Source of the DNA: Bacillota bacterium
Lineage (GTDB): Bacteria > Bacillota > Sulfobacillia > Symbiobacteriales > ZC4RG38
Length of the DNA stretch: 64,000 nt
Direction: 5' to 3'
Assembly (NCBI GenBank): GCA_021890795.1
Contig: JAKKUO010000009.1
Coordinates: 1 to 64,000 of the forward strand
Shown here: piece by piece, positions 2,337-56,797 of the stretch
Numbering within the stretch: the stretch's first letter is position 1
How the letters are laid out: each line of letters begins with the position of its first letter
The notes under the pieces: model-generated
What the model saw: only the letters and a program-made list of their open reading frames with translations
Databases searched by the model: none
What the model was told of the DNA's origin: nothing
Position numbers and translations under genes: made by a program

Positions 2337-2374
2337 GGCGAGGCGGAGCCGGGGCTCCGCCTCGCCGCCTTTTT
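2337..2374 (+). terminator. Rho-independent terminator
   Basis: 14-bp inverted repeat GGCGAGGCGGAGCC (2337-2350) / GGCTCCGCCTCGCC (2353-2366) followed closely by five T at 2370-2374. It ends the pilin-like gene on the plus strand. It also lies just past the stop of the convergent small peptide gene, but has no T-run in that direction. Confidence 0.85.
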
Positions 2375-2379
2375 GTCCG

Positions 2380-2502
2380 TCAGCAGCTGCCGTACGTCCG
2401 CCAGGTGCTCACGGTGCACTCGATGCCCACGGAGCCTGCCACGGCCGTGCCGGCCAGACAGAGCAGCACGGCTGCCGCCAGGATCACCACCCGCCGGATC
2501 AC
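2380..2502 (-). CDS. 40-residue exported peptide, candidate signalling peptide
   Basis: Unannotated small gene read on the minus strand. Its GTG start at 2502 overlaps the stop of the TPR gene as GTGA, the signature of translational coupling. AAAGGGGG lies eight bases before the start. The product has a basic N-terminus (MIRR), a hydrophobic core (VVILAAAVLLCLAGTA) and a likely signal-peptidase site AVA/GS after residue 22. This would release the 18-mer GSVGIECTVSTWRTYGSC, with Cys29 and Cys40 available for a disulfide or thiolactone. A TPR protein followed by a short exported peptide is the layout of Rap-Phr and other RRNPP cassettes in Firmicutes. The signalling role is an inference from this arrangement. 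Confidence 0.6.
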   Translation of the reverse strand: MIRRVVILAAAVLLCLAGTAVAGSVGIECTVSTWRTYGSC

Positions 2503-3575
2503 CGCTTCTGCCCCCTTTTCTGGGTTTTCTTGTCACCAATGTATAACGAAGGAAATCGTGGGGCGGTTCGCGGGCGGGGATCCGGTTCCTGGCTGGCGGC
2601 GGCCTCCCGGACCAGCAGCGACGGGCTGAGGTATGGCCCGATGTTGATGCCCTGGGCGAGGTAGGACCGGTCCAGGGCCTGTACCAGCTCCCGGCCGCCG
2701 ATCCGGATCAGCTCGCACATCAGGAAGGTTGCTTCGAACTCCAGGTCGTACTGCCGGGCGCCCAGGGCCAGGACCCGGGCGGAAAGGGCAAAACCAAGGG
2801 CATCCTCCAAGAAGCCCAGGGCCTGACTGGCCCGGGCCAGCAACATGTGGATCTCAAAAGCCAACCACGGCTCTTCTTGGCTAAGCTCCCGGGCCCGAAG
2901 CCCCAAAGACGTGGCCCGCCAGAAGCGTCCCCGGTCCAGGGCCCAGAGGCCCTGTTCCAGCAGGTAAAGGGCGACAACTCCGGGCCGTCCCCGGTGCGTT
3001 TGGGCGAATCCCTTGAGCAGATGCAAGAGCCCCGGCACCTCCCGGGGGGCCGCGGCCCGGGCTGAGGCCAGGAGCTGATGCCAGGTCAGGCAGGCGAAGC
3101 CAAGCTCCCCCTGGCTGAGAAAGCCGCTCAGCGCCCGGCGGAAGGCCGGTATCGCCTGGCTGTGGTGGTTCTCCATCTGCCAGGCCGCGCCGAGGTTGGC
3201 CCAAATCCGGGGCTGGAAGCGGGTCGCTTTCCGGTACCGATGCTCGTAAAGAAAGTAGTTGGAAAGGACCCGGCGGGCTTCTCTCGGCTCCCGGATGCTC
3301 AGGTGGCACTGGCCGAGTTCCAGGCAGAGGGTACCGACCAGGTCCCAGAGCCCCAGGTCCCGGGCCAGGTGGAGGGCCGACCGCCAGGCGGGCAGGGCGC
3401 CCACGGCATCGCCGACGTTGAACCGGGCGCAGGCTACCAGTCGATTCAGATGGGCCAGGTCCTCGGGCCGGTGCCCGCCCCGTTGCAGCAACTGCTCCGC
3501 AAGGTCCAGCGCCTTCTGATGCTGCCCGGTCTCCACCAACTCGATCAGGTAGTACAGGGCTTCGGGTGAAAGCAT
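2499..3575 (-). CDS. TPR-repeat protein, candidate Rap/RRNPP-type peptide receptor
   Basis: 358 residues, helical throughout, with several degenerate tetratricopeptide repeats (for example HQKALDLAEQLL, AVGALPAWRSALHLARDLG, HSQAIPAFRRALSGF, WLAFEIHMLLARASQALGF). There is no N-terminal helix-turn-helix, so it is closer in plan and length to Rap proteins than to PlcR or NprR. The tail (about 335-358) is basic and Pro-rich. Start ATG 3575 has an excellent ribosome site, AGGAGGGAGG, five bases upstream. The gene overlaps a 40-residue exported peptide gene by four bases at its 3' end, suggesting a receptor-peptide pair. The partner protein or promoter it would act on is unknown. Confidence 0.65.
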   Translation of the reverse strand: MLSPEALYYLIELVETGQHQKALDLAEQLLQRGGHRPEDLAHLNRLVACARFNVGDAVGALPAWRSALHLARDLGLWDLVGTLCLELGQCHLSIREPREARRVLSNYFLYEHRYRKATRFQPRIWANLGAAWQMENHHSQAIPAFRRALSGFLSQGELGFACLTWHQLLASARAAAPREVPGLLHLLKGFAQTHRGRPGVVALYLLEQGLWALDRGRFWRATSLGLRARELSQEEPWLAFEIHMLLARASQALGFLEDALGFALSARVLALGARQYDLEFEATFLMCELIRIGGRELVQALDRSYLAQGINIGPYLSPSLLVREAAASQEPDPRPRTAPRFPSLYIGDKKTQKRGQKR

Positions 3576-18293: not shown

Positions 18294-19130
18294 CTAGCTC
18301 ACCTCCTGCTGGCCCAGGTACGCCTCAATCACCCGGGGGTCGGACTGGATCGCCCGGGGATCCCCCTCGGCGATGGTCCGGCCGAAGTCCAGCACCAGGA
18401 CCCGCTGGCAGATACCCATGACGATGGGCATGTGGTGCTCGATGAGAAGAATGGTCAGGTCAAACTGCTCCCGGACCCAGCGGATGAGCTGCATCAGCTC
18501 CTCGCCCTCCTGGGGGTTCATCCCCGCGGCGGGCTCGTCCAGGAGGAGCAGACGGGGCCGGGTGGCCAGGGCCCGGGCGATCTCCAGCCGCCGCTGCTCG
18601 CCGTAGGCGAGGCTCCGGGCTGGCCGCTCGGCCTTGTCCGCCAGCCGGAACAGGTCCAACAGTTCCAGGGCCTGGCGCCGGAGGGCCGCCTCCCGCTCCC
18701 GGAAGCGCCGGCTCCGCACCAGCGCGTCCCACAGGCCGTAACCGGCCCGGAAGCCCATGGCCACCAGGAGGTTCTCCAGCACGGTCATGCCGCCGAAGAG
18801 CCGGATGTTCTGGAAGGTCCGGGCCACCCCCATCCGGGTGATGGCGCTGGCGGGAAGGCCGGTGATCTCTACCCCGCCCAGGAAGATCCGGCCGGCGGTG
18901 GGCCGGTAGACCCCGGTGAGGACGTTGAAGACCGTGGTCTTCCCCGCCCCGTTGGGGCCGATGAGCCCGACCAGCTCGCCCCTCTGCACCGTCAGGTTGA
19001 AATCCTCCACCGCCCGGAGGCCACCGAAGGCCATGGTGACGCCCCGGGCCTCCAGGAGGGGCGGGGCGGCCGGGTGGGGCGGGGCGCCGGCCCCGGGGCC
19101 TGCCGCCCGGTCTGCCGCCATGCCCGCCAT
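18294..19130 (-). CDS. livG: Branched-chain amino acid ABC importer, ATPase 1
   Basis: 278-residue LivG-type ATPase: IGPNGAGKTTVFN, ARTFQNIRLF (a LivG hallmark), LAYGEQRRLEIARAL and LLLDEPAAGMNP. An N-terminal Ala/Pro-rich extension of about 22 residues precedes the domain. ATG 19130 shares one base with the livM stop (TGATG). The C-terminus ends IEAYLG, as in the family. Confidence 0.95.
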   Translation of the reverse strand: MAGMAADRAAGPGAGAPPHPAAPPLLEARGVTMAFGGLRAVEDFNLTVQRGELVGLIGPNGAGKTTVFNVLTGVYRPTAGRIFLGGVEITGLPASAITRMGVARTFQNIRLFGGMTVLENLLVAMGFRAGYGLWDALVRSRRFREREAALRRQALELLDLFRLADKAERPARSLAYGEQRRLEIARALATRPRLLLLDEPAAGMNPQEGEELMQLIRWVREQFDLTILLIEHHMPIVMGICQRVLVLDFGRTIAEGDPRAIQSDPRVIEAYLGQQEVS

Positions 19131-20086
19131 CAGGTCGCCACCCCCTTCTCCCGCCGGGGCCGGAGGAGCCGGCCGAGGTCCGGGGGCCGGAGGCCCATCA
19201 GCCCCCGGGGCATCCGGAGCATGATGAGGATCAGGATCAGGGGGCCGACCACCGGCCGCCACTCCTTCAGCCCCCGGAGCATCTCCATCAGGGCCGTGTA
19301 CAGGGTGGCCCCCAGCACGGATCCGGCGAGGCTCCCCATCCCGCCCAGATAGACCATCACCAGCATCTCCGTCGACTTGATGTAGTCAAAGCTCCGAGGG
19401 TGGATGTACTGGAGCAGGTGGCCCCAGAGGGCGCCGGCAGCCCCGGCGATGGTCCCGGCGATGACCAGGGCGAGGAGCTTCAGCCGCCGGACCTCCGCGC
19501 CCATCAGCTCTGCCGCGATGTCGCTCTCCCGGATGGCCACCCAGAGTCGGCCGTAGTTGGACCGGACCAGGTTCCGCAGCACCAGAAGGCTGAGGGCCGT
19601 CAGGGCATAGACCCAGAGGAGGTTGGTGGCCCGGGGCAGCCCCGGCAGCCCCCGGGGGCCTCCCAGGTAGTCGATGTTGTTGATCAGGTTGACGACGATC
19701 ATGTTGAAGCCCAGGGTGATGATGGCCAGGTAGTCGCCGAAGGTGGTGAAGGCTGGGATCCCCACCAGCCAGGCGAAGAACCCCGCGGCCACCGCCCCGG
19801 CCAGGAGGGCCAGGGGAAAAGGCAGGTGCCACTTGACGGTGAAGAGGGCGGAGACGTAGGCGCCCACGGCCATGAACCCGGCGTGGCCGATGGCGAACTC
19901 CCCGAGGTAGCCGTTCACCAGATTGAGGCTGGCGGTGAGCATGATGTTGATGCCGATGAGCTGCAGGATCTGCAGGAGGTAGCCGCTGACCAGTCCGGCC
20001 CGGCCCAGGAGGTGGACGGCGACCACGGCCAGCGTCAGGCCGCCCCAGAGGAGGAGGGATTGCCAGCGCTTCACCGGCGTGTTCAC
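19130..20086 (-). CDS. livM: Branched-chain amino acid ABC importer, permease M
   Basis: 318 residues with about nine hydrophobic helices and the LivM core motifs LNLVNGYLGEFAIGHAGFMA and GDYLAIITLGF. GTG 20086 starts seven bases after the end of livH. Works with LivH as the membrane channel. Confidence 0.95.
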   Translation of the reverse strand: MNTPVKRWQSLLLWGGLTLAVVAVHLLGRAGLVSGYLLQILQLIGINIMLTASLNLVNGYLGEFAIGHAGFMAVGAYVSALFTVKWHLPFPLALLAGAVAAGFFAWLVGIPAFTTFGDYLAIITLGFNMIVVNLINNIDYLGGPRGLPGLPRATNLLWVYALTALSLLVLRNLVRSNYGRLWVAIRESDIAAELMGAEVRRLKLLALVIAGTIAGAAGALWGHLLQYIHPRSFDYIKSTEMLVMVYLGGMGSLAGSVLGATLYTALMEMLRGLKEWRPVVGPLILILIMLRMPRGLMGLRPPDLGRLLRPRREKGVAT

Positions 20087-55255: not shown

Positions 55256-56797
55256 CTACTTGACGATCTCGGCCTGCCGCAGGTCCAGGTTGATGAAGGC
55301 GAAGGGGTAGACCTCGCCCTGGAGCCGGCGGTTCTTGGCGTAGGCCGTCAGCGGGTAGTAGAGGGGCAGGTAGGGCAGGTCCTGCTGCAGCTGCTGCTCA
55401 ATCTGGGTGTACAGCCGGGTCCGGGCCTCGAGGTCGGTGGCAGCCCGGGCCTCCTCGAGCCACTGATCGACCTGGGGGCTACGGTAGAACGCCCGGTTGT
55501 CGGCCTCGTGCTGGCTGGAGTGGAGCCAGGCCCAGTAGGCGTAGTCCGCGTCCATGGTCACGGTGCCCCACTGGGAGAGGAAGAGGCCGTGGTCGGGCTG
55601 CCGGGTGTCCTGGTCGAAGGTGCCGAAGTCGGTGACGGAGACCTCCACGTCGATGCCGATCTCTTTCAGTTGGGCCTGGATGGCCCCCGCGATCTGCCGG
55701 GTCTCCGCATTGTCGTAGGTGTGGAGCTTCAGCTTGAGGGGCAGGGTCACCCCGGCCTCCTGGAGAAGCTGCCTGGCCTTGTCCAGGTCATAGGGAACCG
55801 GCTGGAGCCCCTGGGGTGCACCTGCCACCCGGGGCGGCACCATCGCGGTGGCCTCCTGGGCCATTCCCTGGCGCAGGGTCTCCACCATCGCCTTCCGGTT
55901 CAGGGCGTGGGCGATGGCCTGGCGCACCTTCGGGTTGCTCAGGGGCCCCGCCTTCATGTTGAAGCCCAGGTAGACGGTGCCCCAGCCCAGGAACCGGGTG
56001 GCGGTGAGGGGCGGATCGGTGGCCAGCTCATCGAACCGCTCCGGCGGGATGCTGGTGATGAGGTCGACGGTGCCGGCCTTCAGCTCCACGATCTGGGTGC
56101 CGGCCTCGGGGATCACCCGCATCACCAGGGTCTCGATCTTGGGTTTGCCGCCCCAGTAGTCGGGGTTGGCCACCAGGGTGACGGACTCGCCGGGCTTCCA
56201 CTCCTGGAACTTGAAGGGCCCGGTGCCCACCGGCTCCTTGCCCAGGTCCTTCTGGGCCGCGGCGGGGCTGACGATGGCCGTCACCGGGTGGGCCAGGTGC
56301 GCCGGCAGGGGCCCGAAGGGCTTGTCGGTGATGATGCGGACGGTGTAGTCGTCGACGACCTGGACTTCCTTGATCATCGAGACCACATAGGCCCCTGGCG
56401 CCTTCGTTGCCGGGTCCCGGAGCCGGTCCAGGCTGAACTTGACCGCCTGGGCGTCAAAGGGTGTGCCGTCGTGGAACTTCACGCCCTCCCGGAGCTTGAA
56501 CTCCCAGGTGGTGGGGTCCAGGGCCCGGTACTCCGTGGCCAGCCGGGGCACCAGGGAGCCGTCGGGGCTTCTGGCCAGGAGGCTCTCGTAGATCTGGTTG
56601 GTGACGCCGAAGACGTTGCCGCTGAAGGACTTATGAGGGTCCAGGGTGGTGGGCTCGCCGCTGACGGCGATGACCACCTTTTGCTCTGAACTCGGCCCCT
56701 GCTGGCCGCCGTCGCCCCCCTGGGGCGCCTTGCCGCCGCCGCAGGCGGACAGGGCAAAGAGGGCCAGGGTCAGCAGGAGCGCGCCGAACTTCCGCAT
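55256..56797 (-). CDS. dppA: Peptide-binding lipoprotein of dpp/opp type
   Basis: 513-residue family 5 solute-binding protein. Signal peptide with lipobox LFALSACGG; the mature part shows TLDPHKSFSGN, YESLLARSPDGSLVPRLATEY and FKLREGVKFHDGTPFDAQAVKFSLDRL, the standard family motifs. ATG 56797 follows AAGGAG. First gene of the operon. Peptides are the usual ligand, but nickel, glycosides or opines are also carried by this family. Confidence 0.93.
   Translation of the reverse strand: MRKFGALLLTLALFALSACGGGKAPQGGDGGQQGPSSEQKVVIAVSGEPTTLDPHKSFSGNVFGVTNQIYESLLARSPDGSLVPRLATEYRALDPTTWEFKLREGVKFHDGTPFDAQAVKFSLDRLRDPATKAPGAYVVSMIKEVQVVDDYTVRIITDKPFGPLPAHLAHPVTAIVSPAAAQKDLGKEPVGTGPFKFQEWKPGESVTLVANPDYWGGKPKIETLVMRVIPEAGTQIVELKAGTVDLITSIPPERFDELATDPPLTATRFLGWGTVYLGFNMKAGPLSNPKVRQAIAHALNRKAMVETLRQGMAQEATAMVPPRVAGAPQGLQPVPYDLDKARQLLQEAGVTLPLKLKLHTYDNAETRQIAGAIQAQLKEIGIDVEVSVTDFGTFDQDTRQPDHGLFLSQWGTVTMDADYAYWAWLHSSQHEADNRAFYRSPQVDQWLEEARAATDLEARTRLYTQIEQQLQQDLPYLPLYYPLTAYAKNRRLQGEVYPFAFINLDLRQAEIVK

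Follow-up and report, generated by a model that had tools for sequence, protein, structure and literature searches.

A TPR protein and its predicted exported two-Cys peptide as a probable member of a peptide-signalling family in Symbiobacteriales

We identified, in a 2.79-Mb draft genome of Symbiobacteriales, a gene for a TPR protein without HTH that is followed directly by a small gene whose product is predicted to be exported. The two form a real, conserved gene pair, which probably belongs to a lineage-specific Symbiobacteriales peptide-signalling family that would work in a manner resembling Rap-Phr and other RRNPP systems. The DNA analysed, here called the window, is a 64-kb stretch of this genome, and its features at the locus are as follows.

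2337..2366, plus strand: intrinsic terminator with a 13-bp stem and a T run, just past the propeptide stop.
2380..2502, minus strand: propeptide gene of 40 codons with a GTG start, overlapping the receptor stop by 4 nt (GTGA).
2383..2436, minus strand: codons of the 18-residue tail GSVGIECTVSTWRTYGSC, predicted to be exported.
2437..2502, minus strand: codons of the predicted Sec signal sequence MIRRVVILAAAVLLCLAGTAVA, with cleavage after AVA placed by eye.
2499..3575, minus strand: TPR protein gene, 358 aa, ATG start, no HTH; candidate cytoplasmic peptide receptor.
2502..2618, minus strand: C-terminal receptor tail, residues 320-358, disordered in the AF2 model.
2511..2519, minus strand: weak ribosome site AAAAGGGGG of the propeptide gene, preceding its GTG start.

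All Pfam matches in the window receptor were TPR, with TPR_2 above the cut-off, and Pfam gave no HTH, which agrees with the 358-residue HTH-less TPR protein described in an earlier sequence-only reading of this DNA. An AF2 model (pLDDT 76, pTM 0.66) predicted an all-helical TPR superhelix over residues 1-320, with repeat helices from residue 4 on. The top fold matches of this model in Foldseek were LGN/Pins and designed TPRs, and no RRNPP receptor, Rap included, appeared among the 50 best.

The 40-codon gene of that reading, with its GTGA overlap and its own ribosome site, was likewise found, the site AAAAGGGGG being weak. Translation gave the signal-peptide sequence, AVA site and 18-residue two-Cys tail that it had proposed: the product, MIRRVVILAAAVLLCLAGTAVA followed by GSVGIECTVSTWRTYGSC, has two Arg, a hydrophobic core, the AVA site and then the tail, whose two Cys stand 10 residues apart with the second as the last residue. 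A search for a sigma-70-like promoter of the propeptide gene found none. The terminator at 2337..2366 belongs to a convergent plus-strand gene (2106-2310) for a short pilin-like product (MFGRGPLVARLLGRDQRGSQTVEWLALSLVVLALLG...), which had no Pfam match and is conserved in a sister species. Across the 64-kb window our ORF rule picked out three small ORFs that resemble signal peptides and have a ribosome site, only one of which, the propeptide ORF at 2380-2502, lies directly behind a gene. A further small ORF, at 19130-19282 (minus strand), also has a ribosome site, encodes a hydrophobic segment resembling a signal sequence, and has no TPR gene ahead of it.

We compared the locus with that of the sister species (G002; contig QGUP01000187.1, MAG ZC4RG38), the only same-genus neighbour among the genomes compared. 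The receptors are 86% identical and the peptides 85%. The sister peptide gene has an ATG start and 41 codons, a similar ribosome site (AGAAGGGGGG), and a single indel inside the ORF, of 3 nt and in frame; the last nine tail residues, STWRTYGSC, are identical. Codon conservation, the lack of which the sequence-only reading had named as evidence against the pair, is present: between the two ORFs dN is 0.095 and dS 0.228, with P=0.011 by simulation for so few amino-acid changes. Only these two closely related species were seen to have the window pair itself, and the GTGA coupling is not conserved between them: the sister receptor stops 165 nt before the start of the peptide gene; translational coupling, which had been put forward as a feature of the pair, is thus a peculiarity of one species. 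The window and sister alleles differ by an indel of ~150 nt, and the last ~25 residues of the window receptor are therefore encoded by sequence that lies between genes in the sister.

Searching with the window and sister peptides led to two more TPR/peptide loci in the window's genome, on contigs C57 and C58, and both pairs are retained in the sister species. On C58, the gene of a 318-aa TPR protein shares an ATGA overlap, also retained in the sister, with the gene of a peptide reading MKRVLGLLLAVATVLALAGVAAA followed by SPNGTVGLDSARVGESR. On C57, the TPR protein gene is followed by one for VRRWLALLLAALVLGLLAGTAIA and then YPNGPIWPEETVHTVGYDR, the sister tail being HPNGPIWPDEAVQSVGSPR; between these two tails the core NGPIWP is constant and the remainder drifts. 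Identity between the TPR proteins is ~40% for C57 and C58 and ~21% for the window and C58. Pooled over the three peptide ORF pairs, dN was 0.112 and dS 0.282, and by this measure the peptide ORFs are under purifying selection. The sister carries an extra whole TPR/peptide pair at the C58 locus (G002:C143, L090), which is absent from the window's genome and has left no recognisable remnant there; complete pairs are gained or lost between sister species.

A profile of the window-genome receptors retrieved diverged relatives from the Symbiobacteriales genomes G082, G090, G066, G044 and G024, the last of which we take to be S. thermophilum, with up to about nine TPR/peptide pairs per genome. No family receptor was found in G001, the sole other genus of the window's family. 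Searching 154 genomes from the class and 398 from the phylum turned up nothing convincing outside the order, where the best matches were generic TPR proteins, and within that set the receptor family appears confined to the order; a plasmid search gave no match. Searching the class with a peptide profile returned chiefly chance matches to signal sequences, and real pairs could be told apart only by checking the ORF context.

For that check we used a signal-peptide rule that asks for a positive N terminus, a hydrophobic stretch of 12 residues with none strongly polar, a small residue at both -3 and -1, and a tail of at least 5 residues. It was applied to the strand of the gene in question, between 150 nt before and 400 nt after the stop. 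Under this rule, which was composed after the first pairs were already known, a signal-peptide ORF lies behind 26 of 41 family receptors, a count in which the receptors are not independent (several are paralogues) and one, G066:C25, is doubtful, as against 0 of 65 control genes (0/32 other window genes and 0/33 genes in related loci; Fisher P about 1.6e-14). None of 960 shuffled regions held such an ORF. The peptide ORFs behind the 26 receptors start from about 80 nt before to 190 nt after the receptor stop. Within a linear-peptide clade (tree support 99/98), 13 of 14 receptors are paired when orthologues are collapsed. By sequence, these loci make up an order-wide Symbiobacteriales family of putative TPR/exported-peptide modules.

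The tree places the window receptor's nearest relatives outside its genus at G082:C2, G090:C763, S. thermophilum 3165 kb and G066:C31, and these receptors have no downstream peptide gene and are arranged as tandem TPR genes. Homologues consistently without a downstream signal-peptide ORF had been named as evidence against the pair; this is the situation at the nearest other-genus homologues, and not in the sister species or in a more distant relative, G082:C2, where two two-Cys peptide genes sit between such tandem receptors. Looking upstream of receptors with no peptide behind them gave a convincing case in G082:C2 only. Receptors without a peptide of their own are common among Rap proteins too: Rap genes outside mobile elements have a propeptide candidate in 74% of cases (PMC9765709).

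The lack of a peptide gene at the nearest receptor homologues, the absence of the overlap from the sister species, and the GTG start with its weak ribosome site would all be expected if the window pair were fortuitous or decaying, that is, a real TPR gene beside an unrelated exported peptide, with GTGA an accident of a local indel. We nevertheless regard this as very unlikely: gene order and strand are the same in two species, the peptide is under purifying selection, two-Cys peptides are also encoded between type A receptors in G082, and the family-wide pairing rate is far above that of the controls.

Most of the tails are linear and carry the recurring motifs NG[TPS]IWP/GxWP and GGVGVK. Examples are PNGPIWP, NGNGTIWP, RPIWP, GPRWP, GPKWP, EPRTAGPTIW, EPRSGGPSSF and, twice, IGGVGVK. 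Of the 17 linear tails, 4 contain the pattern [GRP]xWP, where shuffling leads one to expect 0.34 (P=1e-4). One propeptide, G082:C204 (L050, behind a TPR gene at 1477-2364), holds the core NG[TS]IWP twice (ENGTIWP...ENGSIWPF), which resembles the multi-pheromone propeptides of RRNPPA systems; tandem-pheromone propeptides are known from such systems (PMC11343458). The second class comprises the window peptide (GIECTVSTWRTYGSC), two from G082:C2 (SCGPAYPGDAPC and TCTGAAYPGDVPC), and one each from S. thermophilum (ACNGGSGGPPPPPTGSKC), G066 (ACNGGNGNGGPPPSESGC) and G090 (ACDDNGGGPGLVGC). All of these tails have exactly two Cys, 9-15 residues apart, with the second at the last position, a pattern that suggests a disulfide loop. 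Should the peptide act in the cytoplasm, such a loop would have to be opened or enter with it.

Two-Cys tails that end in Cys would also suit disulfide-closed, bacteriocin-like peptides, and several pairs have unrelated neighbours; in two cases a large AAA/PRTase-CE or peptidase C25-like protein is encoded ahead of the pair. Both observations would fit a small product that is itself the effector, a secreted antimicrobial or membrane-active peptide for which the TPR protein serves as regulator, immunity or delivery partner. The tails, however, are short (about 10-30 residues) and mostly neither cationic nor amphipathic, and no double-glycine leader, dedicated exporter or modification enzyme was seen in the neighbourhood. 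They also diverge among paralogues while a short core stays, which suits receptor specificity. We consider an effector role unlikely.

All of the propeptides share a single hydrophobic segment and a positive N terminus, and the gene overlap in some pairs would suit a jointly made protein complex, as if the product were a membrane microprotein that stays uncleaved, sends no signal outside the cell, and tethers or regulates the TPR protein on the cytoplasmic side of the membrane. Arguing against this are the AXA-type cleavage sites behind the hydrophobic segment in nearly all of them (AVA/G, AAA/S, AIA/Y, AFA/G, ASA/E) and the recurring motifs in tails that would face outside, one of which has its motif twice; we think such a microprotein improbable.

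The likeness to Rap-Phr lies in the organisation: a TPR receptor without HTH, then a short propeptide exported by Sec (a prediction here), many paralogous pairs per genome, and presumed uptake by Opp. The sequences give a different picture. The N-terminal 3-helix bundle of RapF covers residues 1-68 (PMC3601957); the window receptor instead opens straight into its repeat helices and matches nothing but TPR in Pfam, and neither this receptor nor alignments A5 and A6 gave a match to the Rap domain or to an HTH. A sequence profile does match RapF (E 4e-6), ranked behind dozens of unrelated TPR proteins, and RapF is absent among the 60 best PDB-sequence matches listed for A6. Ten peptides had no match to a known Phr family in Pfam or NCBIfam. 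In contrast to Phr peptides, the linear tails often carry a conserved core near the cleavage site, and the order has in addition the two-Cys class with its C-terminal Cys. We therefore rejected Rap membership of the receptors, for which Pfam, NCBIfam, PDB sequences and Foldseek give only generic TPR similarity. The proposal of a new pair of TPR receptor and exported peptide is supported chiefly by the two further pairs and the order-wide family; descent from Rap-Phr is not supported.

Among other RRNPPA systems, NprR, PlcR, PrgX, Rgg, AimR, AloR and QssR share with the present pairs a TPR receptor adjoining a propeptide gene; they differ in having an HTH, which the Symbiobacteriales receptors examined lack, and show no recognisable sequence relationship to these receptors. 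All RRNPPA receptors have an N-terminal HTH save Rap and subfamily 17 of Anoxybacter fermentans; the latter, placed in the nine-TPR clan B, is like Rap a lineage founded by HTH loss (PMC12700828). As described there, it resembles our receptors in the missing HTH. Published RRNPPA criteria call for a TPR receptor of 250-500 aa adjacent to an ORF of 10-100 aa with a Sec signal and a ribosome site (PMC10075063). By our own rule this broad arrangement holds for the window pair and 25 further receptors (one, G066:C25, doubtful); the default ATG search of RRNPP_detector would skip the GTG start in the window (PMC10075063). Autoinducers of the AgrD type are also short exported peptides with a Cys able to close a ring, but the two-Cys peptides of Symbiobacteriales have a Sec-type signal sequence and a Cys at the very last residue. 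By eye, no AgrB or AgrC was recognised around the pairs examined, and a match to TIGR04223 was weak (E 0.22) and fell on the leader of a linear-class peptide. The family is best read, on this comparison, as RRNPP/Rap-Phr-like by organisation, with a separate, order-restricted receptor family lacking HTH, and not as a member of Rap-Phr. A stronger version, which we offer tentatively, is that the receptors form an expanded HTH-less family of their own, independent of Rap/RRNPPA, which would read both linear NGxIWP-type and disulfide-closed, Cys-ending peptides, the window's included.

Beyond the gene arrangement, we infer the following course of export, maturation, re-import, binding and output. 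The small gene would give a propeptide, which would leave the cell through Sec and be cleaved by signal peptidase; the tail may be trimmed further and, in the two-Cys class, perhaps closed by a disulfide. As in Rap-Phr/RRNPP systems, an oligopeptide permease would bring it back, after which it would bind the concave groove of the adjacent TPR protein and so change that protein's hold on a partner. Since there is no DNA-binding domain, the output would most likely run through protein-protein contact, a response regulator being one example of a target. The window's genome has eight SBP_bac_5 oligopeptide-binding proteins, one of them encoded in the window (55511-56554, minus strand), a candidate importer of peptides. 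In the linear clade, the Asn and Trp of LQNAAW are nearly invariant, with a second Asn 40 residues earlier; RapF Asn227 holds the PhrF backbone (PMC3601957), and the comparison with the invariant Asn is suggestive only.

Rap proteins control response regulators, and for the Symbiobacteriales receptors there are hints of such links. The C58 pair lies behind genes for a LiaF-like protein, a histidine kinase and a NarL-type response regulator on the same strand (G000:C58, L134:3901-7771, minus), and an N-terminal receiver domain of the response-regulator type is fused to family-type TPR domains at G090:C253 (L041) and G082:C112 (L125). We found no common neighbouring target gene; neighbours differ from pair to pair, so no shared target is visible.

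If the proposal is true, peptide quorum sensing through intracellular TPR receptors extends to a lineage with none described in the literature searched. In the library searched, which covers few subscription papers and no supplementary tables of the RRNPP surveys, no paper was found that links Symbiobacterium to RRNPP or to signalling peptides. Having neither of the known RRNPPA effector domains, the receptors offer a way to study the action of a TPR receptor that has no effector domain of this kind, and synthetic peptides made to the conserved tail cores can be tested directly. S. thermophilum grows well only beside a partner bacterium, and its signalling vocabulary is therefore of interest.

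Two further loci were observed among the pairs. At G082:C92 (L145:1299-5630, plus strand), a pair with the tail DLSGPRWPPVVTISSFRK lies directly behind the gene of a 1087-aa AAA + PRTase-CE protein of conflict-system type, and is possibly a peptide-controlled defence system. At G090:C406 (L141:1133-6902), two opposed TPR/peptide pairs lie behind the gene of a 1060-aa protein that combines peptidase C25 and carboxypeptidase-regulatory-like domains.
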